Numbered from the stretch's first letter, positions 6,391-23,979 are shown. The stretch is DNA of 33,275 bases from Minisyncoccota bacterium (GCA_937936355.1 CALDDM010000011.1:1-33275); one strand, 5' to 3'. A program made the numbers and translations. Notes: generated from the sequence alone by a model not told the origin.

Positions 6391-6403
6391 GGGATATTTC
6401 CTC

Positions 6404-6712: not shown

Positions 6713-6775
6713 TGATTACTCTCCACGAAAAGTGCGATTGATATGCCAGTTCTAAACACATACTGGTTAGAATAT

Positions 6776-6804
6776 ATATTAACATAATATTTACATTAAG
6801 TCAA
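6776..6804 (-). promoter_or_regulatory. Promoter for winged-helix gene C
   Basis: Minus strand: TTGACT (6799-6804), 17-nt spacer, TAATAT (6776-6781). The 5' leader contains an inverted CCAGT/ACTGG pair (6746-6750 with 6762-6766) that could be an operator. Confidence 0.65.
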
Positions 6805-6917
6805 TATTATATCAAATATTACTATAGACCCTACCAATTTCTCTCTCTACTATCGTAGATTGCCACCTCTCTCTTTCTTTGTTTGGCAATCAAGTCCTCC
6901 CAGTGATGTAGATTATA

Positions 6918-10297: not shown

Positions 10298-10950
10298 TTT
10301 TTTACTGTTAATTCAAAGAATCTGTGCCACGGGTTTAAATTATCACTAAACTCCTGATTTATATCATAACTCTCAGATAAATCTTGTCTTAGTCGCTTTG
10401 GGGCATACCCCTTTGTTCCAAGCTCCCAATAGTGCTGACCATCAAACTTATGCTGAATGGGAAATGGTACGGAAAGCAAAAATGACACTGGCTTAATTAC
10501 TGACATTTTCAGTCGCATAGAAAAGTAGAGGCGGACATATGGAATAGAGAAAATAACATTGCCAGTAAGCTGAGCAATTTTATTCAGTGTTTTAATAGCA
10601 TCTTCATATTCCACATGCTCGAAAACCTCGAAAGCACAGATAATATCAAAACGTTCTTGAACGATCGCGTCAATTTGTGTCATATCCCCCAAGAAATCAG
10701 GTGATAAGTCCTCAGCAAGATCCATCACTTTATAATCAACTTGAGGATAGTTCGCACTAATATAACTTTTCAGAAAGGCAGAGCCAGATCCAATCTCCAA
10801 AATCTTGACTGAATTCGATTTCTGTAACAACAATTCTATTTTCTTACGCAACAATCTTTGCTGGTGAAAGTAGCTAGAAAATCTTGGCATGTTCTCGTAA
10901 TCCTCACTATCATAATGCTCTTTATTAACTTGTTTTGTGTAGTTGTCCAT
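10294..10950 (-). CDS. Class I SAM-dependent methyltransferase, 218 aa
   Basis: Motif I ILEIGSGSAFL (50-60), motif II acidic VMDLAED (about 75-81) and motif IV FDIICAFEVFEHVEY match methyltransferases of the UbiE/Methyltransf_11 type. Among glycan genes it may methylate a sugar or lipid head group. It lies 9 nt after the GT4 gene and overlaps the next GT2 gene by ATGA, so it belongs to the same operon. Confidence 0.85.
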   Translation of the reverse strand: MDNYTKQVNKEHYDSEDYENMPRFSSYFHQQRLLRKKIELLLQKSNSVKILEIGSGSAFLKSYISANYPQVDYKVMDLAEDLSPDFLGDMTQIDAIVQERFDIICAFEVFEHVEYEDAIKTLNKIAQLTGNVIFSIPYVRLYFSMRLKMSVIKPVSFLLSVPFPIQHKFDGQHYWELGTKGYAPKRLRQDLSESYDINQEFSDNLNPWHRFFELTVKK

Positions 10951-10959
10951 TGCAATATT

Positions 10960-12066
10960 TTATATAGTACTTAGAACCTCAAAGATTTCCTCATAACCTT
11001 TCTCAAATGTAACTCCCTTACTCCACTGCCACCCATTTTCCTGCACTGTACTGTAATAGCTTTTATCTGTAAGCATTTTTTCAATATTTCGAGCAAGGTC
11101 TTGGGGTGAATTCTCACCACAGATTAGTCCAGTGTCACCATGTCGCACGCTGTCACGCAGACCATCGACATTATAAACGACTGCTGGCGTGCCCTGACTC
11201 GCTGCTTCGGTCACGATCAACCCCCACCCTTCCTTGATTGATGTTACTGCGATCACATGTGATTGACGCATGAGAGAGATTTTTTCTTGTGTACTCACGC
11301 GGCCCTTGATGGTGATATCTACCTTGTACGGCGAGCGCTCTATATATGACCGCACCTTCTGTGCATATGCACCAGAATCATCCCCTGCAATGACAAGCCT
11401 TGCATCAGGAATACTTTTTTTTAGCAATTCAAATGCTTTCACAGTCTCCAGCGTCCGCTTCATCGCACGCATTGCGCCAAAGCAAAGCACGGTCGGCTTT
11501 TCACTTTTTGTCACGACACTCACATCGCCAACTGGCATCATCTCTATGCCCTCTGAAATGATCTGAATATCCTCTTCGTGGAAACCGTATCGCATGAGAT
11601 CGTCTTTGGTACTCTGAGAGACTGTGATCACTTTTTCACTCGACAGAATTCTCAAGTACAGAGGCTCAATCAAGTAACCAATAAGTGAGAGAGGAGAAAC
11701 CATTTGGTAAAACCAGATCTCACGACACAGCTGATGAATAAGCATCACACGCTTTTCCTGCACATAGAACTTTGCAAAAAAAGGAATTGTATTCATCTCA
11801 TCAATCACATAATCTGCCCATCCTATAAGGTTGCTCCTATAGTATCGATATGCGTGCCAGTACACACTATAGCGTCCGCCGACCCGTATGACGCGATATC
11901 CAGCCTCAACCACCTCTTCTGCACCAGCACCATGATACCCCCCCGTCAGGATCGTTACCTCATGACCATCTGCAACCAGTCTACTCGCAAGCTCATGCTG
12001 AACTACCTCAGCACCACCAGCGAGAGGATTCGACTGATCTTTCCATGTCATCCATAAAATTCTCAT
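10960..12066 (-). CDS. GT4 family glycosyltransferase, 368 aa
   Basis: GT-B fold. The N-terminal acceptor domain begins MRILWMTWKDQSNPLAGGAE; the GGAE loop is typical. The C-terminal donor domain starts near VLCFGAMRAMKRTLE (194-208) and has the EX7E motif EGWGLIVTE (E279, E287). First gene of the minus-strand glycosylation operon, with AGAGG about 7 nt before ATG 12066 and an extended -10 promoter at 12114-12122. Likely role: adding a hexose during assembly of a surface glycan or glycolipid. Confidence 0.9.
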   Translation of the reverse strand: MRILWMTWKDQSNPLAGGAEVVQHELASRLVADGHEVTILTGGYHGAGAEEVVEAGYRVIRVGGRYSVYWHAYRYYRSNLIGWADYVIDEMNTIPFFAKFYVQEKRVMLIHQLCREIWFYQMVSPLSLIGYLIEPLYLRILSSEKVITVSQSTKDDLMRYGFHEEDIQIISEGIEMMPVGDVSVVTKSEKPTVLCFGAMRAMKRTLETVKAFELLKKSIPDARLVIAGDDSGAYAQKVRSYIERSPYKVDITIKGRVSTQEKISLMRQSHVIAVTSIKEGWGLIVTEAASQGTPAVVYNVDGLRDSVRHGDTGLICGENSPQDLARNIEKMLTDKSYYSTVQENGWQWSKGVTFEKGYEEIFEVLSTI

Positions 12067-12113
12067 GAAAACCTCTAAAATATCTATTCAATAAATCCTT
12101 TCGCAGAATTAGC

Positions 12114-12122
12114 ATGATACCA
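12114..12122 (-). promoter_or_regulatory. Extended -10 promoter of the GT4 operon
   Basis: Minus strand TGG-TATCAT (TATCAT at 12114-12119). TTGCAT lies 17 nt upstream as a poor -35. Confidence 0.5.
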
Positions 12123-12225
12123 TTTTATAGTACTAAATGCAAGAAATAAATGGTACATAAACTTGAAGTAAGAATTAAGTATCTAGATCATAATCCATTA
12201 TCAGGCCAATTTACATTCACACTCA

Positions 12226-12810
12226 TTAGAATCCAAGATCATTGTAATCTACAGCGATATTGTATATAAGCGCAGGATCAGTGTGAAGACGAATTCTTCC
12301 ACAGTCAGCACCATCGCCCTTATCGACTGTGTCGTCAAGATACTCAAAAAAACCTGCATCTATACCTCCTGCATTCGCGTATATGAGATTAACGCCTCTA
12401 TTGTTTAAGATGCGAGAGCTGCTACAGGGAAATTGTACTTCTCCATCCATATCGTTATCATATGCATATTCGCCAGATGAGCCAGGCACATAAAGATCAT
12501 CCTGCAAATAGTCGCTAAGTGTCGCCATAGGTCCTACAGAGATCGTTCGCACATCATTTATTGGTATATTTCCTGTAGACCCTAACAATGCACTAAAACT
12601 ACTATCATTCTCATCCCACCATTCATCTAAGCCCTCGTCGAGGAGTGTGAGTTGTAGTGCTTTTTCGATGCCCTTCATTTCTGTCAGTGCTTTGGAGTAC
12701 TGCGCTTTTTGGCGGGCGCTGTTTAAGCTGACAATCACGATCGATGCCAGTATGCCGATGATCGCGATGACGATGAGGAGTTCTATGAGTGTAAATCCTT
12801 TCTTTTTCAT
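12226..12810 (-). CDS. Type IV pilin-like protein, 194 aa
   Basis: The start is set at ATG 12810 so that the product begins MKKKGFTLIELLIVIAIIG. This is a type III signal: prepilin peptidase cleavage after G5, methylated F6, E10 equivalent to Glu5 of the mature pilin. The hydrophobic helix continues to about residue 26 and is followed by SLNSARQKA, a tract frequent in Patescibacteria pilins. The C-terminal part is acidic with two Cys (CSSS and CGRIR) that may form the D-region disulfide. It would be a subunit of a pilus or pseudopilus. Its peptidase and ATPase partners are not in the window. Only an extended -10 (12855-12863) is visible upstream. Confidence 0.9.
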   Translation of the reverse strand: MKKKGFTLIELLIVIAIIGILASIVIVSLNSARQKAQYSKALTEMKGIEKALQLTLLDEGLDEWWDENDSSFSALLGSTGNIPINDVRTISVGPMATLSDYLQDDLYVPGSSGEYAYDNDMDGEVQFPCSSSRILNNRGVNLIYANAGGIDAGFFEYLDDTVDKGDGADCGRIRLHTDPALIYNIAVDYNDLGF

Positions 12811-12854
12811 ATCTTGTGCATAGTTTTGTATGTCGTAGAGCATCAAGTGATAAA

Positions 12855-12863
12855 AGTATATCA
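12855..12863 (-). promoter_or_regulatory. Extended -10 box for the pilin gene
   Basis: Minus strand TGA-TATACT (TATACT at 12855-12860) without a good -35. Confidence 0.4.
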
Positions 12864-12921
12864 CAACGCACAAGCGCATATTGCGGAGATAGTGCAATAA
12901 TTCTTTTTGTACTTTATTCCA

Positions 12922-12955
12922 TAAAAAGAAGCCCTACATGTAATCACGTAGGGCT
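12922..12955 (-). terminator. Terminator of the 13026-13589 gene
   Basis: AGCCCTAC/GTAGGGCT stem (12930-12937 with 12948-12955) with A-rich bases at 12922-12929, giving a minus-strand T-run. Confidence 0.75.
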
Positions 12956-13025
12956 CTTGCTATTTCTTGACTATCCGACTTTGCACCGCTTACAGATCAG
13001 CTATTGTGAGCCTGTTGCAGTTTTG

Positions 13026-13589
13026 TCAGAGCGTTACTCTCATCCTTTTTCCTTCTACTTCCTCTGGTTCGAGGAAAAAAAGCGGTAGCTGAATGTCGTT
13101 TATAAACGTTACTTCCTCAGCTGCTTGGCTGGCGCCGACTCTGTTTTTCCGTACAATCGCGAAACGATAGAGCTTGCTCGGGTTGTAATGCGCCTCCGTC
13201 TCTATCGTGCGGTCCTCGCCAACTGTCTGCCACTTCCAATCAAGGGAGTAATCGAGATTTTCTGCGTCTACCTGGATTGTGAAGACATTTCTTTGTCGGG
13301 CGTACTCCTGGGATACAATTTCCGGGATGTACGCTATAGCGTGGACTGTTTGCGTGCCGTCATCATATACACGTAGAAAGAGCGATAGGCTATAGAGATC
13401 GTTGGCCATTACGTAATCGCCAATATGCTCATCTCTAAAGCTCGTGCCATCTAAGACATCTTGCCCTACTTCGTCGGTTTCGCTCACATTGGATGTGGGA
13501 TTTTCTGTGTTGGTAGCGTCTTCGCTGCCACATGCAGAAAGCGCGAGGGTCAGTACAGCAGATATCACGAGGGGTTTTATAATTTTCAA
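13026..13589 (-). CDS. Predicted lipoprotein, 187 aa
   Basis: A TTG start at 13589 (AAGG about 9 nt upstream) gives MKIIKPLVISAVLTLALSAC, lipobox LSAC, lipidated Cys20. An Asn/Thr/Glu-rich linker follows (SEDATNTENPTSNVSETDE), then a beta-rich domain of about 140 residues (SLSLFLRVYDDGTQTVHAIAY, LDYSLDWKWQTVG, LYRFAIVRKNRVG). No family recognised. It is a separate transcription unit with a consensus promoter at 13674-13702 and terminator at 12922-12955. It lies next to the pilin and channel genes, but no shared operon is seen. Confidence 0.75.
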   Translation of the reverse strand: MKIIKPLVISAVLTLALSACGSEDATNTENPTSNVSETDEVGQDVLDGTSFRDEHIGDYVMANDLYSLSLFLRVYDDGTQTVHAIAYIPEIVSQEYARQRNVFTIQVDAENLDYSLDWKWQTVGEDRTIETEAHYNPSKLYRFAIVRKNRVGASQAAEEVTFINDIQLPLFFLEPEEVEGKRMRVTL

Positions 13590-13673
13590 CTGGGTATACC
13601 TTTTTTATATTTATATTGTAAATGTGCTGGCAAATAAAATAATTTAAAGAGACTATCTCATTTGCTGCGTAGC

Positions 13674-13702
13674 ATAATACTATATGTTGGTATTTTTGTC
13701 AA
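13674..13702 (-). promoter_or_regulatory. Promoter for the 13026-13589 lipoprotein
   Basis: Minus strand TTGACA (13697-13702), 17-nt spacer starting AAAATA, TATTAT (13674-13679). The -35 box touches the upstream gene's terminator. Confidence 0.75.
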
Positions 13703-13734
13703 TATAAAGCAGCATACCGTGATCGGTATGCTGC
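13703..13734 (-). terminator. Terminator of the channel gene
   Basis: 11-bp perfect stem GCAGCATACCG/CGGTATGCTGC (13709-13719 with 13724-13734), loop TGAT. A sister hairpin with the same left arm and loop lies at 14591-14616. Confidence 0.75.
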
Positions 13735-13809
13735 AACAATTCAACTAAAGCTACCATCAATTAATCTGACACATTACCTAGCTTCTCAGGGCTCTTTGAT
13801 AGCCGAGCA

Positions 13810-14496
13810 TTACTCTTTTTCCAGATTGTCTGCATCATCTGCATCATCGCTACCATCATTTTGATGCGATGCATCACTTGATTTTGCAAAGATGAGTGAG
13901 ATCACCAGTACGCCAGCATAAACCGTGATGAGCATATGAATGAGAGTAGGACCAGGTGCAATCTCATACATTTGCATCCAATTCCCCAGGTCTTCTGTGA
14001 GCCCCATGATGGTAGATGTAATCATCGACCGCCACAACTCACCAAACTGCTCTGGCATTGCACCAGCAAAAGCATAGTACCCTATCAATCCCTTGATGAA
14101 AATACTCATAAAAAAGATCGCCATCAAGGGCAATGTCATCTTGAGGGCTGCGCCCATATCCTCGACGGCATCGCGGAAGTAACTATGTCTTTCCACGATA
14201 CGATACAAACGGATTGCACGACATGGCTCAAAACCAGGCACAAAAGCCAAGAATGTTGTCACCACATCAAAGTAGAACCACCCACTGCGCCATGATTGTC
14301 GCGCAAGAAAAACAGCTCTCAGAAAGATATCGGCACACAAAATGCTCACCAACACTTTTTCCACCAACACAAAGGTGGGATTGCTCAGATAAAAATGAGC
14401 TGCATGTCCAGCCAATGCCAGGGCATACAATGCGATAACGATGTCTACAGCCCACCTATATAAACTACTTTTTAGATATCTAGCAAGTGCGTACAT
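13810..14496 (-). CDS. Voltage-gated cation-channel-like protein, 228 aa
   Basis: Six hydrophobic segments in the order of a single-domain ion-transport (BacNav-type) channel. S1 is about 13-36, S2 43-66 and S3 72-88. An S4 has Arg at every third position (R93, R96, R99, then R103). S5 is about 117-142, with a pore loop at 151-173 and S6 about 183-204. The pore region FGELWRSMITSTIMGLTEDL matches the FGxL..S...L....T[LE]E pattern of bacterial sodium channels, with T167-E168-D169 in the filter position. The C-terminus is strongly acidic and lacks an obvious long coiled coil. It should form a tetrameric Na+ or Ca2+ channel. GGGAGGCG ribosome-binding site before ATG 14496. Confidence 0.75.
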   Translation of the reverse strand: MYALARYLKSSLYRWAVDIVIALYALALAGHAAHFYLSNPTFVLVEKVLVSILCADIFLRAVFLARQSWRSGWFYFDVVTTFLAFVPGFEPCRAIRLYRIVERHSYFRDAVEDMGAALKMTLPLMAIFFMSIFIKGLIGYYAFAGAMPEQFGELWRSMITSTIMGLTEDLGNWMQMYEIAPGPTLIHMLITVYAGVLVISLIFAKSSDASHQNDGSDDADDADNLEKE

Positions 14497-14527
14497 GTGA
14501 CGCCTCCCAATTTAAGTAACTGCATGC

Positions 14528-14555
14528 ATCATACACAACTTTTTATTTTTGTCCA
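14528..14555 (-). promoter_or_regulatory. Promoter for the channel gene
   Basis: Minus strand TGGACA (14550-14555), 16-nt spacer starting AAAATA, TATGAT (14528-14533). Confidence 0.6.
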
Positions 14556-14583
14556 CTGTGAAGACAGCCTCATACCATACCAA

Positions 14584-14617
14584 TAAAAAAGCAGCATACC
14601 GTGATCGGTACACTGCT
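14584..14617 (-). terminator. Terminator of the GNAT-like gene
   Basis: AGCAG...CTGCT outer arms and CCG/CGG inner arms around TGAT (14590-14617); six A at 14585-14590 give the minus-strand T-run. Confidence 0.75.
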
Positions 14618-14630
14618 CCAGCATCGCCTC

Positions 14631-15017
14631 CTACGCGATATAATACTCGCCTGATTCGGCGCTCTCTAGAAAGCCAATTGACTCCCAAAAACTACGCGCA
14701 CTATCCTGCACATTGGAAGCTACGAGTCCCATATTATGCGATTCCGCGTAGTCCATAAGTGCACCAATCACATATGTGCCAAGGCCACCTCCCTCTTCAC
14801 GCACTGTGATATTTTTGATCTTGAGGTCATCTCCATCATCTGCAAATATAAGCGTGAGCTCATCTGCTTCTAGGTGCACAGCATCACCTATTTCTGCAAA
14901 TGTAGCGCTCTTACCCAAGATTTCACGCAAAACAATCTGTAATTGTTGATGCACGTTTTCATCAGATCTTTCTTCGATGCGATCTCCAGAATCGCCTTTT
15001 GAATCGTTCTCTCTCAC
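14631..15017 (-). CDS. GNAT-like acetyltransferase, 128 aa
   Basis: The C-terminal half reads as the GNAT core: a beta-strand LKIKNITV, then EEGGGLGTYVIGALMDYAE (about 75-93), which replaces the canonical Q/R-x-x-G-x-G/A acetyl-CoA loop with a Gly-rich GGGLG. A final ARSFWESIGFLE follows the typical A..FY...GF pattern. The N-terminal 30 residues are charged and probably disordered. The divergent pyrophosphate loop makes activity uncertain. GTG 15017 with AAGG about 10 nt upstream. Monocistronic. Substrate unknown. Confidence 0.65.
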   Translation of the reverse strand: MRENDSKGDSGDRIEERSDENVHQQLQIVLREILGKSATFAEIGDAVHLEADELTLIFADDGDDLKIKNITVREEGGGLGTYVIGALMDYAESHNMGLVASNVQDSARSFWESIGFLESAESGEYYIA

Positions 15018-15130
15018 TCTTTCATGCCTTTTATTATATTCTCATTTCAAAAAGTACAGCCCTCGCATTATGACACATTACAGATACTCCGTCAATGCTT
15101 GATTTATGTACGATAAATCGCAAATAATTA

Positions 15131-15164
15131 AAAAGCAGTGTATCAGATTCGATACACTGCTTTT
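15131..15164. terminator. Terminator of Cys-family gene 1
   Basis: 14-bp perfect stem AAAAGCAGTGTATC/GATACACTGCTTTT (15131-15144 with 15151-15164), loop AGATTC. Related hairpins follow the next paralogs. Confidence 0.9.
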
Positions 15165-15184
15165 GCTACTACCAGATCCTTTGG

Positions 15185-15631
15185 TCATGTTGGTCTGATC
15201 ATTCGCTTTTTGCCTTCTTTTGCTCGTACTTTTTTGATCCATCGCCGTAGAGACTTCACTTTTTTCCTGTGCTCGACTGGTGGATATGCCAAGAACTCAG
15301 ACAGTGAGTGCTCCAACTCTTCCACATCACACCGAGCAACAAGTGCAAATGCAACAGCTTTATCGAGGATGTAGACTTTTTCTGCGAAGTCCATCGTAAG
15401 ATTATCGTTAAGCAGGTCGAGACACTCTTTGATTACCTCTTCACCGATCTCGCGTACTTGTATTTGCTTTTTCCCCGACAAATGATCATATCGACGTACA
15501 GCGCCAAAGAGATTGTTGACTTGTGTTATGCACAAGAGCAATTCCCGTGTCCGCCGTTTTTGCACTGCAGTTCCAGACTTCATTCGTTTTGTATCTTCGT
15601 CTGTTGCACGCAAAACTTTATGTCGTGCCAT
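15185..15631 (-). CDS. Cys-core paralog 1, 148 aa, unknown function
   Basis: ATG 15631 is chosen because AAGGAG lies 5-6 nt upstream and the earlier open frame covers the promoter. It is a helical, strongly basic protein. The core KECLDLL, then EKVYILDKAVAFA and DVEELEHSLSEFL align by eye with the other five paralogs: x-C-x(3)-[LWI], [KP]-[IVL]-x-L-x-x-x-[AV]-x-x-F, then a Glu-rich helix. The C-terminus is Lys/Arg-rich (KKVKSLRRWIKKVRAKEGKKR), which suggests nucleic-acid binding. Promoter 15681-15709, terminator 15131-15164. Confidence 0.65.
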   Translation of the reverse strand: MARHKVLRATDEDTKRMKSGTAVQKRRTRELLLCITQVNNLFGAVRRYDHLSGKKQIQVREIGEEVIKECLDLLNDNLTMDFAEKVYILDKAVAFALVARCDVEELEHSLSEFLAYPPVEHRKKVKSLRRWIKKVRAKEGKKRMIRPT

Positions 15632-15680
15632 ATTCACTCCTTGCTCTGATGAGCGAAAAATGGAAAATTCTAACCTCCAC

Positions 15681-15709
15681 ATCATTGCATGAACGACATA
15701 GTCCGTCAA
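15681..15709 (-). promoter_or_regulatory. Promoter of Cys-family gene 1
   Basis: Minus strand TTGACG (15704-15709), 17-nt spacer ending CATGC, AATGAT (15681-15686). Same design as the promoters at 16885 and 17591. Confidence 0.6.
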
Positions 15710-15715
15710 TAAAGT

Positions 15716-15750
15716 GAAAAAGTAGTGCACCTGGTTCGGCATACTACTTT
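15716..15750 (-). terminator. Terminator of Cys-family gene 2
   Basis: AAAGTAGT/ACTACTTT arms (15719-15726 with 15743-15750) abutting the stop codon of gene 2. The promoter of gene 1 begins 6 nt later. Confidence 0.75.
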
Positions 15751-16128
15751 CTACTTTTCATCTTCACACATCCGCCGCACACTTGCTAGGACGATTTTTA
15801 TATCACGTCGGAATTCATAGGTAAATTCTGACTTCATAACGCTATAGATGACTCTTTCAAGATCGTCTACAGTATCTGGTGCATGTTGCACAAAAAAAAT
15901 TGCACTCTGTATCATCCATAGCTGCGCATCCACATGTGGATCACACTCGCTTTCCAGCCATCCGGCACATATATCGACAGCACGCGCTGCAATCACAGCT
16001 GCAGCAGCATGATTCAACCGGCGTAATTCTTCCTCTAAAGCTAGCTCATAGCCTGCAATTAACTCCATCCTCTGTGCTGACACCGCTCCATGTTGGACCT
16101 TGTGCCTCCTTTGCCTTTCCCGTTTCAT
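15751..16128 (-). CDS. Cys-core paralog 2, 125 aa, unknown function
   Basis: ATG 16128 with AGGAAGG about 6 nt upstream. Basic N-terminus (MKRERQRRHKVQHG), then SAQRMELIAGYELALEEEL, which aligns with the KMRAI..FE segment of paralogs 3 and 4. Core: VDICAGWLESE, then QLWMIQSAIFFVQHAPDTVDDLERVIYSV. Ends in a short helical segment. It lacks the long C-terminal extension of its neighbours. Its promoter differs from the others, with only an extended TGT-TATAAT (16209-16217) visible. The leader has two direct copies of ATGAAGGT. Confidence 0.65.
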   Translation of the reverse strand: MKRERQRRHKVQHGAVSAQRMELIAGYELALEEELRRLNHAAAAVIAARAVDICAGWLESECDPHVDAQLWMIQSAIFFVQHAPDTVDDLERVIYSVMKSEFTYEFRRDIKIVLASVRRMCEDEK

Positions 16129-16165
16129 TCTTACCTTCCTCTATATCTCATTTTTTTCATGATTG

Positions 16166-16183
16166 ACCTTCATTTACCTTCAT
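16166..16183 (-). repeat. Direct repeat in the leader of Cys-family gene 2
   Basis: Two copies of ATGAAGGT on the minus strand (16166-16173 and 16176-16183), 10-bp period. A further GGAAGGT-like sequence forms the actual ribosome-binding site. May be a regulatory site or decoy ribosome-binding sites. Confidence 0.5.
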
Positions 16184-16208
16184 TGGAAGGTACATCTTCT
16201 TTGCAGTC

Positions 16209-16217
16209 ATTATAACA
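16209..16217 (-). promoter_or_regulatory. Extended -10 promoter of Cys-family gene 2
   Basis: Minus strand TGT-TATAAT (TATAAT at 16209-16214), perfect -10 with TGn extension and no good -35. Confidence 0.6.
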
Positions 16218-16254
16218 CTACACGCGCAAATACTTTTCCCTTGCTTCGCGAAAA

Positions 16255-16290
16255 AGAAAAGCAGTGTATCACGTTTGATACACTACTTTT
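16255..16290. terminator. Terminator of Cys-family gene 3
   Basis: AAAAGCAGTGTATC/GATACACTACTTTT arms (16257-16270 with 16277-16290) with one mismatch, loop ACGTTT. Near-copy of the hairpin at 15131-15164. Confidence 0.85.
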
Positions 16291-16306
16291 TGTCGGCCCC
16301 TATCGC

Positions 16307-16807
16307 TTAGTAGCCAACCGCCTTCCTTTGACGATACTGCAAACGTTTTCCTACGTGCATCGCAAGCAACTTCATCCTCATTACAGAAGATATTTTCTGC
16401 TTAACATCGGCCTTTGCTTGCAAGATATTACCAAGAAGACGTGTGAATTCTCCTCTGAGTTCTGGCAAAAAATCCGCCTCGTCAATACTGATTACAACCT
16501 CTTCAACGCGCACCAGTGTCAGCGGCGCATAACTGATAAATTCCATTGCTTTTTGTAGTAGATAGATCTTACCGTGATGTGACTCACCTTCTATCCATCC
16601 CAAGCATATATCGACTGCTTCGGTTGCGATTACCTGTACCCCTAGGTACTCCAGAGATTTCTGCTCTTCGTTTTGTTCAAGATCTGCATACCTCAACTGA
16701 TCAGCTATGTCTTGCTCTACACGCCTAATCGCTCGCATCTTATCTTGTGCCACAGGATAGCCCACACTCTGTGGCGCTGGACCATTCCCAGTACCTTTTC
16801 CCATTCT
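16307..16807 (-). CDS. Cys-core paralog 3, 166 aa, unknown function
   Basis: ATG 16807 with AGGAGG about 7 nt upstream, giving an N-terminus MGKGTGNGPAP shared with paralog 4 (MGKGTGMSES). Domain plan: a Gly-rich N-terminal tail, a helix DKMRAIRRVEQDIADQL, and a core VDICLGWIEGESHHGKIYLL followed by QKAMEFISYAPLTLVRVEEVV. A segment ELRGEFTRLLGNI and a basic C-terminus (LQYRQRKAVGY) follow. The highest pairwise similarity is with paralog 4 (HGKI[YF]LLQKA). Soluble and helical. Promoter 16885-16913, terminator 16255-16290. Confidence 0.7.
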   Translation of the reverse strand, partial: RMGKGTGNGPAPQSVGYPVAQDKMRAIRRVEQDIADQLRYADLEQNEEQKSLEYLGVQVIATEAVDICLGWIEGESHHGKIYLLQKAMEFISYAPLTLVRVEEVVISIDEADFLPELRGEFTRLLGNILQAKADVKQKISSVMRMKLLAMHVGKRLQYRQRKAVGY

Positions 16808-16884
16808 TTTTCCTCCTGTCTGCTTATCACAGACTATCAAAAGTTACACGTCATATTCAAAGAACATATTCACACAACCATGAC

Positions 16885-16913
16885 ATCATTACACATGCGC
16901 TACATCACGTCAA
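16885..16913 (-). promoter_or_regulatory. Promoter of Cys-family gene 3
   Basis: Minus strand TTGACG (16908-16913), 17-nt spacer ending CATGTGT, AATGAT (16885-16890). Confidence 0.6.
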
Positions 16914-16922
16914 TATGAGACT

Positions 16923-16952
16923 TAAAAAGCAGTGTATCAGAATCGATACACC
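16923..16952 (-). terminator. Terminator of Cys-family gene 4
   Basis: GTGTATC/GATACAC arms (16932-16938 with 16945-16951), loop AGAATC; A-run at 16924-16928. Same core as the hairpins of genes 1 and 3. Confidence 0.75.
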
Positions 16953-16997
16953 ACCTCTGCATACTCACCTCCATTATTTATATTCGACTACTTCTCT

Positions 16998-17537
16998 CTA
17001 TTGTTCGTACCCGAGAGTATAGCGCCTTGGGTTACGACGTCGCAACTCACTCATCTCCATGCCAAGTAACGCGAGTCGCACACGTGGACTCATTGACGAT
17101 TCTGCCATAGCCGCTATTGTTGCATTGGCAACGGCATGCATAAGCTCTACAAACTCATCCTTACGCTCTTGCGAGATGTCTGTCACATCAATCTCGCGCA
17201 GAGCACTCTCGATCAGTGGAAGCTTACCCCTTGCGTTTGTCGCAAAACTGAAGGCCTTCTGAAGCAAAAAGATTTTGCCATGTGCTGACTCTTTATGTGC
17301 CCACGCTAGGCATACACCGATCGCTTTTGCAGCGATCGCACATGCCTTTGTGCGATTTCTTTCCATGACCTTTATCCCCACGTCAGACTGTGAACCTGTT
17401 TCAGTGCTTCGATCATTCAATAGCACATGCACACCTCGCTCAAAGTCTGCAATTGCTCGCATCTTTTGTGGTGATAGAGGACGATTGTGACCGTGCGATG
17501 CCGCATCACTCTCGCTCATACCAGTACCCTTACCCAT
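16998..17537 (-). CDS. Cys-core paralog 4, 179 aa, unknown function
   Basis: The second of two in-frame ATGs (17537) is chosen: GGAGGA lies 7 nt before it, whereas the first ATG abuts the ribosome-binding site, and the choice restores the MGKGTG start of paralog 3. Plan: a polar His/Ser tail, SPQKMRAIADFERGVHVLL, a core IGVCLAWAHKESAHGKIFLL followed by QKAFSFATNARGKLPLIES, a Glu/Lys helix, then LLGMEMSELRRRNPRRYTLGY. Helical and soluble. Promoter 17591-17619, terminator 16923-16952. Confidence 0.7.
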   Translation of the reverse strand: MGKGTGMSESDAASHGHNRPLSPQKMRAIADFERGVHVLLNDRSTETGSQSDVGIKVMERNRTKACAIAAKAIGVCLAWAHKESAHGKIFLLQKAFSFATNARGKLPLIESALREIDVTDISQERKDEFVELMHAVANATIAAMAESSMSPRVRLALLGMEMSELRRRNPRRYTLGYEQ

Positions 17538-17590
17538 TCTCATTCCTCCAGAAAAATTTATACAACGACTGTATTGTGTACAACGTTCTT

Positions 17591-17619
17591 ATCATGACAT
17601 GTACATACTTGCACGTCAA
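17591..17619 (-). promoter_or_regulatory. Promoter of Cys-family gene 4
   Basis: Minus strand TTGACG (17614-17619), 17-nt spacer ending CATGT, CATGAT (17591-17596). Confidence 0.6.
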
Positions 17620-17622
17620 TTG

Positions 17623-17651
17623 AAAAACAGTGTGTCAGATTCGACACGCTG
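17623..17651 (-). terminator. Terminator of Cys-family gene 5
   Basis: CAGTGTGTC/GACACGCTG arms (17628-17636 with 17643-17651), loop AGATTC as in gene 1; A-run at 17623-17627. Confidence 0.8.
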
Positions 17652-17711
17652 CACCGTACACCTATACGACCCACATTATCTACGATATTGCGGAGCGCGC
17701 ATTTTTGTCCT

Positions 17712-18185
17712 TCATTTTTGTGTGGCTCTTCCTGGATGGAGTTGCTCTCCGCACTGCGTCTCATAACGTGCTCGCGTGCTAATGATCTCATCAATCATCT
17801 GCCTGACAAGATCCTGCAAATCTTCTGGTATTTCTAGGTAGAGATTACGTAGAATTGTTTCTGCGTCACCGAGCCGCGATGGCACATGCGTTGCAAAGTA
17901 CACAACTTGCTCCATAAGCCAGATTTTGCTCGTGCTGTGCATTTCAGTCCCAGAATGTAGATGATATATACACATCTCAACGCCAGCATTCGCTCTTGCA
18001 CATATTGCAGGAGGTACAGATTTTACATTGTGCACATCGGAGACTTGCTCCAAACCACTTACCAACAGCTCCACTTCAAACTTGATCGAAATGACTGGCT
18101 TTATGACCCACTCTCTTTGCGGATCATTTAGCAGAATCTCATCTGTCAGATGATCCGACGATGTAGTTTTTTGCTTATCACTCAT
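17712..18185 (-). CDS. Cys-core paralog 5, 157 aa, unknown function
   Basis: ATG 18185; only a weak GGGG-type ribosome-binding site. Core GVEMCIYHLHSGTE, then STSKIWLMEQVVYFATHVP and LYLEIPEDLQDLVRQMI. The last part matches AEIPYEFKLII in paralog 6 on the opposite strand, so 5 and 6 link the two arms of the array. Acidic to neutral, helical, soluble. The promoter (18236-18263) belongs to the TTGACG...ATGAT class. Confidence 0.65.
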   Translation of the reverse strand: MSDKQKTTSSDHLTDEILLNDPQREWVIKPVISIKFEVELLVSGLEQVSDVHNVKSVPPAICARANAGVEMCIYHLHSGTEMHSTSKIWLMEQVVYFATHVPSRLGDAETILRNLYLEIPEDLQDLVRQMIDEIISTRARYETQCGEQLHPGRATQK

Positions 18186-18235
18186 AAACCGGACCCCAGT
18201 ATTGGTGCTTTTACATTGAAAAGTACAACTCTCAT

Positions 18236-18263
18236 ATCATATACCCTCATCCTTTCTCGTCAA
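18236..18263 (-). promoter_or_regulatory. Promoter of Cys-family gene 5
   Basis: Minus strand TTGACG (18258-18263), 16-nt spacer, TATGAT (18236-18241). Confidence 0.65.
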
Positions 18264-18311
18264 TACGTGACACTTTAGGCGTTGACAAAAAATCAATAGT
18301 ATCACATTCAC

Positions 18312-18327
18312 ATAATGCAATAATGCA
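18312..18327. repeat. Tandem 8-bp repeat
   Basis: ATAATGCA twice in direct contact, immediately before the hairpin at 18332. Confidence 0.6.
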
Positions 18328-18331
18328 ATGA

Positions 18332-18361
18332 AAAACCGATCACGTGATACGTGTCGGTTTT
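18332..18361. terminator. Bidirectional hairpin of unknown transcript
   Basis: AAAACCGA/TCGGTTTT (18332-18339 with 18354-18361) with CACG/CGTG inside. Terminator-like in both directions, but no gene precedes it on either side. Confidence 0.6.
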
Positions 18362-18484
18362 GCTGTGTGCTTTTGCACAAGAAAAAATCTGATGAATTTG
18401 TGGGAACTACTGGGACCCTTGTCGAATCTGTCCTGTGCATAACTCATACCATTTCCTCGCCTCACATCTTGCTGCATAGCGGAT

Positions 18485-18512
18485 TTGACTCTTGTATATG
18501 TCGGTGTATGAT
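18485..18512 (+). promoter_or_regulatory. Promoter of Cys-family gene 6
   Basis: TTGACT (18485-18490), 16-nt spacer, TATGAT (18507-18512), mirroring the promoter of gene 5. A second possible promoter is TTGCTA (18521-18526), 16 nt, TAATAT (18543-18548). Confidence 0.6.
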
Positions 18513-18620
18513 AGTCAGAGTTGCTATCATTACAACTACACATAATATAAAAATGATCTTTTAAAACATGTGCAACTATCAACTAGGTGCACGCATAACA
18601 AGAAACACAGGAGACGATCA

Positions 18621-19094
18621 ATGCGTACGATAAACTGGCGACAGTTTCCGGAGATCTACCAACGCTATGTCCAAGTAGCAACACGTGACTTTCCAGAGGG
18701 TCTGGAATTTCTTAACACGTGTTTGTACCTACACTTATCCGGAGGTATAGAGACCCTCGCACACGAGGATCCGCTGCGCATCACACTACGCGTTGTAGAC
18801 TTCCTTAACCGCAAACGTACTGAGGAGAATCATCCTGAGTACACCCTCTATGACGTCTCAGCTGAGATTCCATATGAGTTTAAACTCATTATCTGGCGTG
18901 AGTATCATGTGCCATCGGGAAACGTTGTGCCTGCCCACTACATCTCACCTCTTGCTGAGATTCTCTTTGGTGAAACAATTGATGAACCTGTCAACAAGTC
19001 TCTTGGCGATTCTGTCGATGATTCTGCCAACACATCTGACGATGCGGATATCGTAGAGGCGATTGAGAGCCTAACGAGAGATTCGATCACGTGA
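18621..19094 (+). CDS. Cys-core paralog 6, 157 aa, unknown function
   Basis: ATG 18621 with AGGAG (18609-18613) 7 nt upstream; the frame before it is not used. N-terminal helix (INWRQFPEIYQRYVQVATRDF), core LNTCLYLHLSGG, then PLRITLRVVDFLNRKR and SAEIPYEFKLIIWREY, aligned with paralog 5. The C-terminal 40 residues are an acidic Asp/Ser-rich tail (DSVDDSANTSDDADIVE) not seen in the other members. Only plus-strand member, divergent from the other five. Followed by a perfect 20-bp palindrome and a shared terminator. Confidence 0.65.
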   Translation: MRTINWRQFPEIYQRYVQVATRDFPEGLEFLNTCLYLHLSGGIETLAHEDPLRITLRVVDFLNRKRTEENHPEYTLYDVSAEIPYEFKLIIWREYHVPSGNVVPAHYISPLAEILFGETIDEPVNKSLGDSVDDSANTSDDADIVEAIESLTRDSIT

Positions 19095-19101
19095 CCACGA
19101 T

Positions 19102-19121
19102 AAGATGAGATCTCATCTTAC
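19102..19121. repeat. Perfect 20-bp palindrome
   Basis: TAAGATGAGA/TCTCATCTTA with no loop, 7 nt after the stop of paralog 6 and just before the bidirectional terminator. Could be a protein-binding site or part of the 3'-end structure. Confidence 0.7.
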
Positions 19122-19123
19122 CA

Positions 19124-19155
19124 AAAGGCCACCAGTAAACTGCTGGTGGCTTTTC
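19124..19155. terminator. Bidirectional terminator
   Basis: GCCACCAG/CTGGTGGC (19129-19136 with 19144-19151), flanked by AAAA and TTTT. Serves paralog 6 and the convergent GtrB-like gene. Confidence 0.85.
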
Positions 19156-19204
19156 ACATTCTCCAAAAACATAGCGCTCTTTTTCTGTACTATTTTTTGC
19201 TACG

Positions 19205-20218
19205 CTATTTCTTGCTACGTATGACATAGAGTTGTCTCCCTTGTGATTCGTGGTAAATATGCCCCACGTAAAAAGCAAGTAGGCCAATACAGATAAGTAC
19301 GATGCCAATCATAAACAATACAATTACCGCAAGGATTGCACTCCCTGTGAAGTCAAAACCCCAGTGGACTACATAACGATCAAGAAACATAAAGACTCCC
19401 AATGGGAAAGCGATTGTTACGATAATCATCCCAAGATACGCTGCAAGCTTGAGCGGGAAAAGGCTCATCGAGATCACACTTGTTACTGCGAGATTGGCAA
19501 GCTTTATGACGCTATAACCTGCTTCTCCTTGGGTACGCTCAGCAGCGTCAAAATGCACGAGAACACGCCGGAAGCCAAGCCAATCAATGAGTCCACGTGT
19601 AATACGATCTCTCTCTGGCAGCTCGTTGAAGGCGTCGACAACTTTGCGGTCGAGAAGTCTATAATCTGTTGCATGTGGCACAATCGGCACATTGCTAATG
19701 AGCCCGATGATGCGATAGAAAAACGCGCCACCGATTTTTTTGATCATGCTATCACTCTTGCTTTCACGGCGAACACCGATGACAACCTCATAGCCGTCAC
19801 GCCACTTCTGGATAAATTCTGGTAGTGCAGAAATTGGATGTTGCAGATCGGCATCAAGCATGAGGCACGCATCTCCACGTGCATCGTGTATGCCGGCTGT
19901 TGTTGCAATCTCTTTGCCAAAATTTCGTGAGAATTCAATATATCGCAGTGTGAGCCATGTGGGACTCTCCTCCCCTGCGATCTCCCTAATTCGTGCAAGT
20001 GAGTCATCATCGGAACCGTCATCGACAAAGATTACCTCTACATCATAGAGATCTGATAGTGATACTTTTTCCTTGCTGTCCTTGCGAGTGTCTTTTGCAC
20101 GCCACTGATCCGTGATCGCAGCTGTGAGTGGTCGTACATTTCCTGCCTCATTGTATACAGGTACGACAATCGAAATCAATTGTCTCTTCATGTCTTTTGT
20201 ATGATTTTTCTGACCCAT
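19205..20218 (-). CDS. GtrB/DPM1-like polyprenyl-phosphate sugar transferase (GT2), 337 aa
   Basis: GT-A domain: ISIVVPVYNEAGNV (16-29), VDDGSDDD (65-72) and LDADLQHP (121-128), the DXD motif with the LQHP extension typical of dolichol/undecaprenyl-phosphate glycosyltransferases. DRITRGLIDWLGF fits the conserved acceptor-loop region. Two hydrophobic C-terminal regions (about 250-278 and 290-320) anchor it. It makes a polyprenyl-phosphate-linked sugar, the donor for GT-C enzymes such as those at 6918 and 25263. ATG 20218 has no Shine-Dalgarno site; an extended -10 (TGG-TACAAT, 20236-20244) lies 17 nt away, so the leader may be about 10 nt. Confidence 0.9.
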   Translation of the reverse strand: MGQKNHTKDMKRQLISIVVPVYNEAGNVRPLTAAITDQWRAKDTRKDSKEKVSLSDLYDVEVIFVDDGSDDDSLARIREIAGEESPTWLTLRYIEFSRNFGKEIATTAGIHDARGDACLMLDADLQHPISALPEFIQKWRDGYEVVIGVRRESKSDSMIKKIGGAFFYRIIGLISNVPIVPHATDYRLLDRKVVDAFNELPERDRITRGLIDWLGFRRVLVHFDAAERTQGEAGYSVIKLANLAVTSVISMSLFPLKLAAYLGMIIVTIAFPLGVFMFLDRYVVHWGFDFTGSAILAVIVLFMIGIVLICIGLLAFYVGHIYHESQGRQLYVIRSKK

Positions 20219-20235
20219 AATAATTGTAGAGATTC

Positions 20236-20244
20236 ATTGTACCA
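20236..20244 (-). promoter_or_regulatory. Extended -10 close to the GtrB-like start
   Basis: Minus strand TGG-TACAAT (TACAAT at 20236-20241), 17 nt before ATG 20218. Confidence 0.4.
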
Positions 20245-20258
20245 TTAATCACTTGCAC

Positions 20259-21533
20259 TCACTTGCGCGTGAGAAAAAGTGTTGCGCATACTGTCATAAG
20301 AGCGCTTGCGAGATAGCTCCAGACAATCTGTATCTGTGTATCGTGAAAAATTCCGACAAGTAAGCATAACACAAAAAGACCAAAAAGGGAAGGCCACACA
20401 ATGCGACGATCACCCAAGGCTAGGAAGTACGTGTAGAGTAGATTCAGGATCGCGCAGAGCGCTACATAGGCCCCCGTTGGCAACAACAAATACGACGCTT
20501 GCGCATACTGCGTACCAATCAGCAGTGCTATCAGGAGCTTTGGCATCAGCGCAAAAAACCCCAGTGCGATAGCGCACAGGCTACACACAACCATCATTCC
20601 CTTGCGCAAGATTGTAAGATTTTTCTCGTGAGTTATACCTGTGCCGACTGATGCAAGGACTACACCAGCAACACTTGCCGTCGCAAAAAAGATCACCCGC
20701 GCAATTGTGGCTACACCACTATAGAGTCCTGCATCTTCTGGTGCAAAAAAATACTTCATCACGATCACGTCAGATGTGTAGAAAAATGTCACAAACCCAA
20801 GAGATACAAGAACGAGCCAGCCATGACGATAATACGTTGCTGTGTGACGTGTGGTTTCTTGACTCGCTTCTTTTGTGCCAACTTTACTCGCATCGTCACT
20901 CGCTCCAAGTGTGCGTCGCATATAACGCGCACCTGCGTACCCAAGTGCTACCACAGAGGCAATCACAAATGACAGCATGACTCCTAATACAGAGAGTCCC
21001 ATTGCTACCAGCACAACTGCAGCGATCAACTTCACACTTGCCATCACAGCGTTTACGACAGAAACACCCAAGAAGTCTTTCATGCCTTGTAAATGCGCAC
21101 TATAAAAATGCAGCGCCACACCAATGATTTGCGCAAGTACAAGTGGCATAAAATAGAACGCCGCACCCTCCCCTAACTGCAAATTCTGTGCAAGCATTGG
21201 CGACAGTGCCAGTAGCACGCTACCCAAAACGATCGACACAACAAGAAATGATTGTGCAAAGCGTGCAAGAGATCCTGGTGCCAAGTGAGAGAAAAGCCCA
21301 TATCCAGAACTCCCATTTTCATCTGCGTGCGCAACAAGCACTGTCCGATATGCAAGGGATAAGATACCTATGATGTATGTCACAGAGATCAATGCTTGCA
21401 CATCACCAAACTCAGCAACGCTGAGCATGCGACTGAGGATGGGGTGAAAAGCATAGTTCAAAACGGCCACGATTAGTGATCCTATAAAAAAAACGGCATT
21501 GTGACGTAAAAAGCGATCTTGCAAAATTCCCAT
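20259..21533 (-). CDS. Oligosaccharide flippase (Wzx/MOP-type), 424 aa
   Basis: About twelve membrane spans. The N-terminus LRHNAVFFIGSLIVAVLNYAF then HPILSRMLSVAEFGDVQALI contains the R.L....FG......L signature of polysaccharide biosynthesis/flippase proteins. A polar loop at about 200-225 divides the two halves. It moves lipid-linked glycan units across the membrane. It lies 40 nt upstream of the GtrB-like gene, so the pair is probably one operon. The ribosome-binding site is weak (TAGAG). A triple 11-bp repeat lies upstream at 21598-21630. Confidence 0.85.
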   Translation of the reverse strand: MGILQDRFLRHNAVFFIGSLIVAVLNYAFHPILSRMLSVAEFGDVQALISVTYIIGILSLAYRTVLVAHADENGSSGYGLFSHLAPGSLARFAQSFLVVSIVLGSVLLALSPMLAQNLQLGEGAAFYFMPLVLAQIIGVALHFYSAHLQGMKDFLGVSVVNAVMASVKLIAAVVLVAMGLSVLGVMLSFVIASVVALGYAGARYMRRTLGASDDASKVGTKEASQETTRHTATYYRHGWLVLVSLGFVTFFYTSDVIVMKYFFAPEDAGLYSGVATIARVIFFATASVAGVVLASVGTGITHEKNLTILRKGMMVVCSLCAIALGFFALMPKLLIALLIGTQYAQASYLLLPTGAYVALCAILNLLYTYFLALGDRRIVWPSLFGLFVLCLLVGIFHDTQIQIVWSYLASALMTVCATLFLTRK

Positions 21534-21579
21534 ACTCTAATTGCTTTACACCCAGAGATTTGCATCCATTGGATTACTT

Positions 21580-21585
21580 ATATTA
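21580..21585 (-). promoter_or_regulatory. -10 box for the flippase operon
   Basis: Minus strand TAATAT (21580-21585) without a consensus -35. The innermost repeat of the array at 21598-21630 covers the -35 position, as at activator-dependent promoters. Confidence 0.5.
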
Positions 21586-21597
21586 TCCCTTCTTCCA

Positions 21598-21630
21598 TTC
21601 TACAGTATTTCTTCAGCATTTCTACAGTAT
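21598..21630 (-). repeat. Triple 11-bp direct repeat (PHO/OmpR-box-like)
   Basis: On the minus strand, three contiguous 11-bp units ATACTGTAGAA, ATGCTGAAGAA, ATACTGTAGAA. In register, CTG[TA]AGAA recurs every 11 bp (one helical turn), ending 12 bp before the -10 box. PhoB/OmpR-family response regulators bind such 11-bp direct repeats in place of the -35. No regulator gene of this type is in the window. Confidence 0.65.
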
Positions 21631-21636
21631 TGCGAT

Positions 21637-21668
21637 AAAAAATTACCGCACAACAAATTGTTGCGCGG
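21637..21668 (-). terminator. Terminator of the 21700-22086 gene
   Basis: CCGC-CAACAA/TTGTTG-GCGG arms (21646-21668); six A at 21637-21642 give the minus-strand T-run. Confidence 0.8.
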
Positions 21669-21699
21669 CTATACCCGCATCGTAATGGCACATAATTGA

Positions 21700-22086
21700 T
21701 CATGCGACATCCCCCTGATCAAAGTCTTCCAATGAATTAACTGCTTCATCATAAGACCTCTGGACGTACGCCTCGATCGTCTGTGTGAGAACCCCTTTGT
21801 GGAGGGAGATTTTTACAGATGAACCTTTTTTGTGTGCGCGTAAAACACATATCTGCGATCCAACATTCTTTACTGCAGCAACACTTTTATTAGACGGCTT
21901 TATGCTCACAGAGAGCGCGATGCCATCCCGCGTTTTATCAGCAATGTCCCCGATGATTGTATCAAGACCCGCATCCTGAAAGTATTCTTGTAAAATCTCA
22001 AAATGCCGCTCTACAGTACCAAAATCTGAAGTATCGTACGCAAAAAAGTAATCAGCAGATGAGAATGCGTTTATGCTATTGCTCAT
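21700..22086 (-). CDS. Orphan protein, 128 aa
   Basis: ATG 22086; no Shine-Dalgarno site. Soluble, with an N-terminal helical half (FGTVERHFEILQEYFQDAGLD) and a C-terminal beta-rich half (IALSVSIKP, SQICVLRAHKKGSSVKISL), ending in an acidic helix (EAVNSLEDFDQGD). No family recognised. Monocistronic: promoter 22119-22147, terminator 21637-21668. Its promoter shares the TTGACGTG start with Cys-family genes 3 and 4. Confidence 0.6.
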   Translation of the reverse strand: MSNSINAFSSADYFFAYDTSDFGTVERHFEILQEYFQDAGLDTIIGDIADKTRDGIALSVSIKPSNKSVAAVKNVGSQICVLRAHKKGSSVKISLHKGVLTQTIEAYVQRSYDEAVNSLEDFDQGDVA

Positions 22087-22118
22087 AATAGCTTTATACC
22101 AAAAAAGAACGAGTTTCT

Positions 22119-22147
22119 ACTGTACACCAAAACACAAGTCACGTCAA
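22119..22147 (-). promoter_or_regulatory. Promoter for the 21700-22086 gene
   Basis: Minus strand TTGACG (22142-22147), 17-nt spacer, TACAGT (22119-22124). Confidence 0.6.
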
Positions 22148-22261
22148 TAATTGTACTACACATAAAGCGAGTTAGTCTTTGACGGAAAAACACTTTTTGC
22201 AATACCCCCTACCATACAATCAACCCTCTCACTATGTTACCTAGAACTTGACTAGTTTCTA

Positions 22262-22290
22262 TTGACAAAATCTGTATTGTATACTATAGT
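22262..22290 (+). promoter_or_regulatory. Promoter of the cold-shock gene
   Basis: TTGACA (22262-22267), 17-nt spacer, TATAGT (22285-22290). The leader is about 70 nt. Confidence 0.8.
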
Positions 22291-22366
22291 TTCTTTGCTT
22301 GTAGTTCAGCATAGTCGGTATCTGTCTCGATGCCAAAATAGTATCATATTACTCTAGGAGAAGATC

Positions 22367-22636
22367 GTGAGTAACAGAAAGAGCGGTACAGTAAAGTGGT
22401 TCAATACGGAAAAGAGCTATGGATTCATCCTCAGCCCTGAGGGCGAGGATGTTTTCGTCCATTATCGAGCAATCCAGGCCAAAGGCTTTAAAAACCTCCG
22501 TGAAGGCCAAAGCGTTACCTACTTGCAAGTCAAAAGCGATAAGGGTTGGCAAGCGGCAGAGGTTGAGATTGTAGCAGATGCAGATGTCGTAATGGATGGA
22601 GAGCGGTCAGCAACCGAAGAAGGTCACTACTGCTAG
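22367..22636 (+). CDS. Cold-shock domain protein, 89 aa
   Basis: GTG 22367 with AGGAG (22355-22359). The cold-shock domain covers residues 5-68: [15 protein letters not shown] contains RNP1 (KSYGFI) and DVFVHY is RNP2, both with the aromatic RNA-contacting residues. The family is usually 65-70 aa; the extra 20 acidic residues ([20 protein letters not shown]) are unusual. It acts as an RNA chaperone or single-stranded nucleic-acid binder. The strong promoter and about 70-nt leader resemble the layout of cspA-type genes, though no cold-box sequence could be confirmed. Monocistronic, terminator 22667-22696. Confidence 0.9.
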
Positions 22637-22784: not shown

Positions 22785-23969
22785 CTACAGTGCGCGAATC
22801 TTGTAATGATCAAAGCTGATATCCATGAAGTCACTGCGTATGCCGGCATTACTTGGCGCCACGTGGGCGCTGCCACCGTACGCGACACCATCATCATAGA
22901 CTTCTGCAACTTTTTCCCACTGATACGTCCTCCCCATATCTATAAATAGCTCAATCTTTACCCGTCCATCCTCAACGTTCTGTGTAATGGTTCGAATACC
23001 TACCCACTGATTTTCAGGGATGAGCGTTGGCGCGGTCTCTCGATCAAAGACACCTTCGAGAAATGGTCCTTTGTACAACGTGTGATATGTACCACCGATT
23101 TTTTTCTTGATCACGGCATTACCATCAACGCGTAACCCGCCATAATATAGATTATCATCATCAATATATCGACTGAAAAGTAGGAGGCCATTAGAAGCGC
23201 CACGATCATCTACTTGCACAGCATTGTATTGCAAAACTTTAAAGTAGACTTCTTGTGCAGTGTCTTGCCACGCACCTCGCTTGATCAGGCGAAGAACATT
23301 TTGCGGTTTGCGTCCATTATCAGTTTGTGCTGGCGCGCTCCGTGCATAGGAGTCAATCCATGAGGACCCTTCTGGGAGATCTCCCTCCACTGTATGTGCC
23401 ATGTCATTGCGACGAAAAATGAATGCACCTGAGTTGAGCCACCATTGATCGCTTGATGATTGATCTTGCGCGATCGCTTCTTCTATATATAAGTCTCCAG
23501 AGAATTGATCTTCAAAACTGCCCTGCTCCACCTCTTGCGGTGAAACAATTTGATTTGGTCCCGCGTCTTGGTCTGCATCCTTATCTGTGCTGAGATTTGG
23601 AACCTGATTTGGATCTTGCACAGCATCCTTGGTAGGACTCGCCCCGTCAGATGCAGCTCCTGTCGTAGCGCCTCCTTGCGACACATCCGGTACAATACCA
23701 ACTTCGACAGCTGCGTCTTGAGCAATTGACGTTAAACTTCGCGCAGTGATCGCGTAGCTTGACCAAAAACACACAAAGCCTCCAAGTATAAGAAAAGGCC
23801 ACACACGCCTTTTGATGATTGGTATATGTCCATATGATCTCGTACCCACCTGATCCTCTGGTTGCGGGTACATCGGATTCTCGTGTACATGATTTTGCGC
23901 ATCACTATGAGCTGGCACACGATAAGAGGTCTCACGATTTTTTGGTTTTTCTTGCGGTGCGTTGTCCAT
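22785..23969 (-). CDS. Membrane-anchored concanavalin-like protein 1, 394 aa
   Basis: ATG 23969 is chosen over GTG 23975. A cytoplasmic basic/polar N-terminus of about 55 residues, one signal anchor (about 56-74, VWPFLILGGFVCFWSSYAI), and a Gly/Asp/Gln-rich low-complexity linker (about 90-150). A C-terminal beta-sandwich domain of about 230 residues follows: SGAFIFRRNDMAH, LLLFSRYIDDDNLYYGGLRVDG, NQWVGIRTI, GIRSDFMDISFDHYKI. The G.R.DG..V.KKK.GGTYHTL pattern and the closing GIRSDFMD...D strand fit LamG/3-keto-glycoside-hydrolase-type concanavalin folds. It is 40-50% similar by eye to the next gene. It probably binds or modifies glycan outside the cell. Confidence 0.7.
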   Translation of the reverse strand: MDNAPQEKPKNRETSYRVPAHSDAQNHVHENPMYPQPEDQVGTRSYGHIPIIKRRVWPFLILGGFVCFWSSYAITARSLTSIAQDAAVEVGIVPDVSQGGATTGAASDGASPTKDAVQDPNQVPNLSTDKDADQDAGPNQIVSPQEVEQGSFEDQFSGDLYIEEAIAQDQSSSDQWWLNSGAFIFRRNDMAHTVEGDLPEGSSWIDSYARSAPAQTDNGRKPQNVLRLIKRGAWQDTAQEVYFKVLQYNAVQVDDRGASNGLLLFSRYIDDDNLYYGGLRVDGNAVIKKKIGGTYHTLYKGPFLEGVFDRETAPTLIPENQWVGIRTITQNVEDGRVKIELFIDMGRTYQWEKVAEVYDDGVAYGGSAHVAPSNAGIRSDFMDISFDHYKIRAL

Positions 23970-23979
23970 TGTCACTTAC

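Follow-up and report, generated by a model that had tools for sequence, protein, structure and literature searches.

Within a 33,275-nucleotide stretch of DNA from Minisyncoccota bacterium (GCA_937936355.1 CALDDM010000011.1:1-33275; the whole stretch is called the window below), sequence comparison identified a tandem array of five paralogous genes on the minus strand, accompanied by repeated hairpins and promoter-like sites, with no relatives in the collections searched and with a different gene arrangement at this locus in related genomes. The initial annotation had described six paralogs sharing one invariant cysteine. All six open reading frames were present in the sequence. Profile comparison supported kinship for genes 1–5 (25–59 bits, with shuffled sequences below 13), but not for gene 6 (3.4–5.1 bits).

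Each gene was scored against a profile built without it, with 3,000 shuffles per test. Gene 1 (15185–15631, 148 aa), gene 2 (15751–16128, 125 aa), gene 3 (16307–16804, 165 aa), gene 4 (16998–17537, 179 aa), and gene 5 (17712–18185, 157 aa) scored 25.1, 47.2, 54.7, 58.9, and 30.9 bits, respectively, and the best shuffle score in any test was 12.9 bits. When about 1,500 unrelated ORFs were scored as background, gene 1, the most divergent confirmed paralog, ranked first with 24.9 bits versus 12.5 for the best background ORF, and gene 5 ranked first with 31.0 bits versus 15.1. Pairwise identity among the five proteins was 17–35%. On these profile scores, genes 1–5 are true, deeply diverged paralogs. 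Gene 1 was absent from the list when the genome itself was searched with a four-gene profile; explicit leave-one-out scoring gave 25 bits, and the omission was probably a search miss.

In codon alignments of genes 1–5, all ten pairs showed the fewest differences at position 2 and the most at position 3, and the frames are therefore real coding sequence. The third positions differed at 63–76% of sites, which is near saturation, so that either the duplications are old or divergence has been fast. This supports the earlier suggestion of repeated duplication followed by strong divergence as far as genes 1–5 are concerned; strong divergence alone is no demonstration of positive selection. On the basis of Shine–Dalgarno placement, the start of gene 1 was moved to 15631, that of gene 3 to 16804, and that of gene 4 to 17537. 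Gene 1 starts with MARHKV at a position that follows the terminator of gene 2 and gene 1's own promoter. The MGKGTG start described earlier for genes 3 and 4 was retained, with AGGAGG and GGAGG upstream, respectively.

Gene 6 (18621–19094, on the plus strand, opposite to genes 1–5) was dropped from the family on its profile scores and on an hhalign probability of 1.3%. Its 3.4–5.1 bits ranked 11–15 among the background ORFs, with ten or more unrelated ORFs above it, and the five-gene profile gave no match to it at E≤0.05 in a search of its own genome. The single-sequence model of its product had a pLDDT of 38 and was uninformative. It is true that a Cys and EIP-like positions are shared by hand alignment and that just 8 of 3,000 shuffles reached the real score of gene 6. 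Its rank among unrelated ORFs, its strand, and the lack of both a hairpin and a promoter module nevertheless make it distinctly unlikely that all six genes form one family. The ‘[LA]EIP’ resemblance between genes 5 and 6, noted in the initial annotation, is compatible with chance. Gene 6 is thus not a demonstrable member on the sequence comparisons, and we treat it as a separate orphan until demonstrated otherwise.

The assembly analyzed comprises 1.2 Mb in 37 contigs and is 89.7% complete. Searches with the array proteins found no relative in the family (17 genomes), none in 131 genomes of the order, and no credible one in a class sample of 384 genomes. No member was detectable in two genomes of the same genus. 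Eleven weak class-level matches of 12–19 bits, a single match each and mostly to fragments of long proteins, were read as noise. There was likewise no relative in the genome contig collection or among viral contigs, phages, or plasmids, and no Pfam, NCBIfam, or PHROG family scored above chance. PADLOC gave no convincing match for the array genes or three neighbours; weak matches to Csx21 (E=0.0025) and SspF (E=0.006), covering short stretches of single members only, were treated as chance. The designation of these proteins as orphans holds within the collections searched, and the family therefore represents new sequence space.

When AlphaFold was given the five paralogs as the sole alignment, it returned an all-helical structure with six helices (pLDDT 81, pTM 0.69), the block-mean pLDDT being 87–95 over residues 21–130 of the gene 3 product. 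The shared all-helical core of the family is thereby confidently predicted; the model represents one member, gene 3, with a five-sequence alignment and cannot show function. Foldseek searches of the PDB and viral models gave no match at E≤0.001. The best VIA-align Z scores, 11.7 to a designed helical toroid and about 9 to 14-3-3, lie within the range to be expected of any helical protein. Apart from the start Met, the columns invariant across genes 1–5 comprise the Cys (Cys72 in gene 5), one Phe, and one Glu. The claim of an invariant Cys in all six proteins was narrowed to genes 1–5; by hand alignment, a Cys of gene 6 falls in the corresponding position, but this does not count as evidence of homology. 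In all five paralogs, the hydrophobic moment of the helix carrying the Cys points to within 46 degrees of this residue. Since the hydrophobic side of the helix carries the Cys in each case, this residue is probably a buried core residue rather than a catalytic or redox thiol.

On its 3' side, each paralog has a 34-base hairpin and then a T-rich run; the hairpins are related to one another, and all copies lie on the minus strand. These putative terminators are located at 15131–15164 after gene 1 (with a perfect 15-bp stem), 15718–15751 after gene 2 (the last base touching the gene 2 stop codon), 16257–16290 after gene 3, 16925–16958 after gene 4, and 17623–17656 after gene 5. Two further copies, at 14587–14620 and 13705–13738, follow a GNAT-like acetyltransferase gene (14631–15017, minus strand; weak, sub-threshold GNAT and RimI matches) and a small Ion_trans-type channel gene (13810–14496, minus strand; Pfam PF00520, E=2.4e-8), respectively, both of which are unrelated in sequence to the array paralogs. 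The hairpin consensus had seven coding-strand matches in the whole 1.2 Mb genome, all of them at 13706–17652, within 4 kb: five after genes 1–5 and two after the unrelated genes. The reversed pattern, used as a control, had no match in the genome. The consensus was absent from 16 relatives, and Rfam gave nothing at 12000–22500.

Five pairs of the stem had changed on both sides. Stem positions paired in 97.1% of cases on the coding strand versus 88.6% on the other strand, because several changes give G–U pairs only in the coding-strand RNA. As the changes in the stem favor such pairs, the results support RNA hairpins, most simply intrinsic terminators; for the same reason, a role of the hairpins as operators is less likely.

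A promoter-like module, TTGACG-N17-ATRAT-N6-GNT, was found upstream of gene 5 (18227–18263, with the form TTGACG-N16-TATGAT-N6-GTTGTAC), gene 4 (17582–17619), gene 3 (16876–16913), gene 1 (15672–15709), and the GNAT-like gene (15058–15095), in each case on the minus strand. Five of the eight matches to this module in the genome were at these units, and the control gave none. From this arrangement, each array copy appears to be expressed and terminated separately, as a monocistronic unit.

The hairpins after genes 1–5 differed on average at 27% of sites, compared with 63–76% at third codon positions, and are therefore constrained or homogenised by recombination. The copies behind the channel and GNAT-like genes differed from each other at only 8% of core sites. 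The possibility that the array proteins are nucleic-acid-binding regulators that recognise the repeated hairpin or the promoter module, which would make the array and the two neighbouring genes a self-regulating group, draws on this conservation, in that hairpin loops and stems are far better kept than synonymous sites, on the extension of the promoter module past the −10 box, and on the pI values above 9 of the gene 1 and gene 4 products. However, the products of genes 2, 3, and 5 have pI values of 5.3–6.8, the array proteins had no DNA- or RNA-binding domain match, and a terminator combined with recent homogenisation accounts for the hairpins without any binder. We consider self-regulation of this kind unlikely.

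Two observations concern the sequence that separates gene 5 from gene 6. There may be a decayed eighth hairpin copy near 18290–18320, upstream of gene 5, which would suggest a lost array unit. A near-perfect further hairpin is present at 18331–18362 (AAAACCGACACGTATCACGTGATCGGTTTTTC, minus strand), where there is no clear gene for it to terminate.

The seven hairpins could alternatively be the sites at which mobile gene cassettes recombine, with the GNAT-like gene, the channel gene, and the paralogs as cassettes of one array. Such a system would explain one hairpin per gene, including two unrelated genes, in a single orientation and unique to the locus, as well as the absence of the island from relatives. 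Integron cassette arrays are similarly made up of small genes with a hairpin-forming element after each. Unlike integrons, the array has no IntI and no attC core pattern, and its units have their own promoters, which typical cassettes do not: the core motifs RYYYAAC/GTTRRRY were absent at six of the seven hairpins, and isolated matches near the remaining one were the only ones in hairpins and flanks. No local recombinase was found at the island. The single PF00589 gene in the 89.7% complete assembly, and thus the only tyrosine recombinase found, lies on another contig (C2) and is XerC/D-like; it scored 135 bits against TIGR02249, for which the cut-off is 265, and higher against XerD and XerC (244 and 240 bits). 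The stem changes favoring coding-strand G–U pairs also point to RNA. Taken with these findings, a cassette system is very unlikely.

The array lies in an extra segment of 7.1 kb (12067–19204) between a GT2 (19205) and a GT4 (10960) glycosyltransferase gene that are neighbours in relatives. The segment contains a pilin-like gene, a possible lipoprotein, the channel gene, the GNAT-like gene, the array, and gene 6. In two relatives (L020 and L021), the GT2 and GT4 homologs are adjacent, 35 and 73 bp apart; in a third (L022), the GT4 homolog is beside a flippase, with no GT2 homolog within the stretch examined. The simplest reading of this comparison, which covers three relatives of two genera, is that the segment is an insertion, the alternative being its loss in the relatives. 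The G+C content of the island was similar to that of its surroundings. Its edge regions shared no direct repeat of at least 8 bases and just one 10-base inverted match.

As the surrounding cluster encodes glycosyltransferases, a flippase, and a deacetylase, the possibility exists that the array encodes accessory envelope or polysaccharide proteins, or a lineage-specific housekeeping family, duplicated without any arms race. The position of the island inside a polysaccharide cluster agrees with this, as does the hairpin common to the array, the ion channel gene, and the GNAT-like gene. Against it, the relatives hold the polysaccharide cluster without the array, and the array is therefore not needed for the polysaccharide pathway; moreover, the divergence among the five paralogs greatly exceeds that of dosage duplicates. 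We regard an accessory or housekeeping role as possible but doubtful.

The reading that we prefer, although we would give it somewhat less than an even chance, is that of a species-specific island that grew by the duplication of promoter–gene–terminator units and that now encodes a set of proteins for binding or immunity. The island, of about 7 kb, lies within the polysaccharide gene cluster, and one of its transcription units, consisting of a promoter, a gene, and a hairpin terminator, would have undergone at least four tandem duplications. The resulting five genes encode soluble, all-helical proteins, presumably cytoplasmic, which have diverged to 17–35% identity but retain a small hydrophobic core, the invariant Cys among its residues. 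Each copy would be transcribed and terminated independently. Unequal recombination would have a natural site in the hairpin–promoter stretch that recurs between the genes, and the array could grow and shrink in this way. Each protein would neutralise a separate toxin or phage factor entering from outside.

The functional part of this proposal draws on analogy with known systems. Homogeneous polyimmunity loci consist of tandem, co-oriented, distantly related small paralogs at one locus (Zhang et al. 2012, PMC3482391); extended loci of this type have been reported only in certain proteobacteria, bacteroidetes, firmicutes, and actinobacteria (PMC3482391). Genes 1–5 resemble them in being tandem, co-oriented, and distantly related, with no adjacent toxin gene, at one locus. 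They differ in that the array proteins have no known immunity domain (Pfam, NCBIfam, and PHROG gave nothing above chance) and in that a hairpin and a promoter-like site lie between successive genes, whereas polyimmunity loci have short gaps that suggest one polycistronic message. Recombinase-associated acquired interbacterial defence (rAID) arrays contain co-oriented short genes of 100–300 codons with conserved intergenic motifs (PMC12247911), and the present array shares the co-oriented short genes and the conserved motifs between them, but it has no adjacent tyrosine recombinase or recognised immunity homology and does not, as far as can be told, come from Bacteroidales. In the esaG arrays of Staphylococcus aureus, a homology block is present in the downstream intergenic region and copy number changes by recombination (PMC9484751). 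Tandem diverged copies with such a downstream block are found here as well; in contrast to esaG, the array has no EsaG homology, no type VII secretion locus was recognised nearby, and the divergence is much deeper.

Given the lack of a recognised immunity domain and of an adjacent recombinase, together with the monocistronic layout, we do not assign the array to the polyimmunity or rAID classes. Since these are the closest known layouts, with small, co-oriented, diverged genes and no adjacent toxin, our leading guess at the function of the array proteins, a tentative one, is nevertheless that they form an intracellular set for binding or immunity. The role in recognition, immunity, or defence decoy suggested by the initial annotation is retained as an analogy: a sequence test gave no match of the array proteins to a known immunity family, Pfam recognised no toxin, secretion, or recombinase family in those genes of the window that were scanned, and PADLOC gave no convincing defence match for the array genes and three neighbours. 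Should the proteins serve in immunity or defence, a type of array known from bacteria with larger genomes would extend to a reduced one.

A layout in which hairpins confined to one locus join paralogs and unrelated genes as independent units is unusual, and it leads to a testable prediction on how such islands grow. A further-reaching interpretation would be that this small-genome bacterium carries a new type of expandable array for immunity or recognition. In such an array, paralogs and unrelated genes would be carried as alike promoter–gene–hairpin units, the locus-specific hairpin would both end transcripts and serve exchange, and a new family of all-helical binding proteins would be the main content; we rate this as rather improbable.

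Outside the island, Pfam gave no match for two large genes (22785–23975 and 24035–25075), whose products have 44–50% identity to a flippase-adjacent protein of the same-genus relative L021. Between the flippase and 22785, the window has a segment (21700–22636) with a small orphan gene (21700–22086) and a cold-shock domain gene (22367–22636). In L021, the homologs of both neighbours of this segment are adjacent, and it may be a second extra segment.
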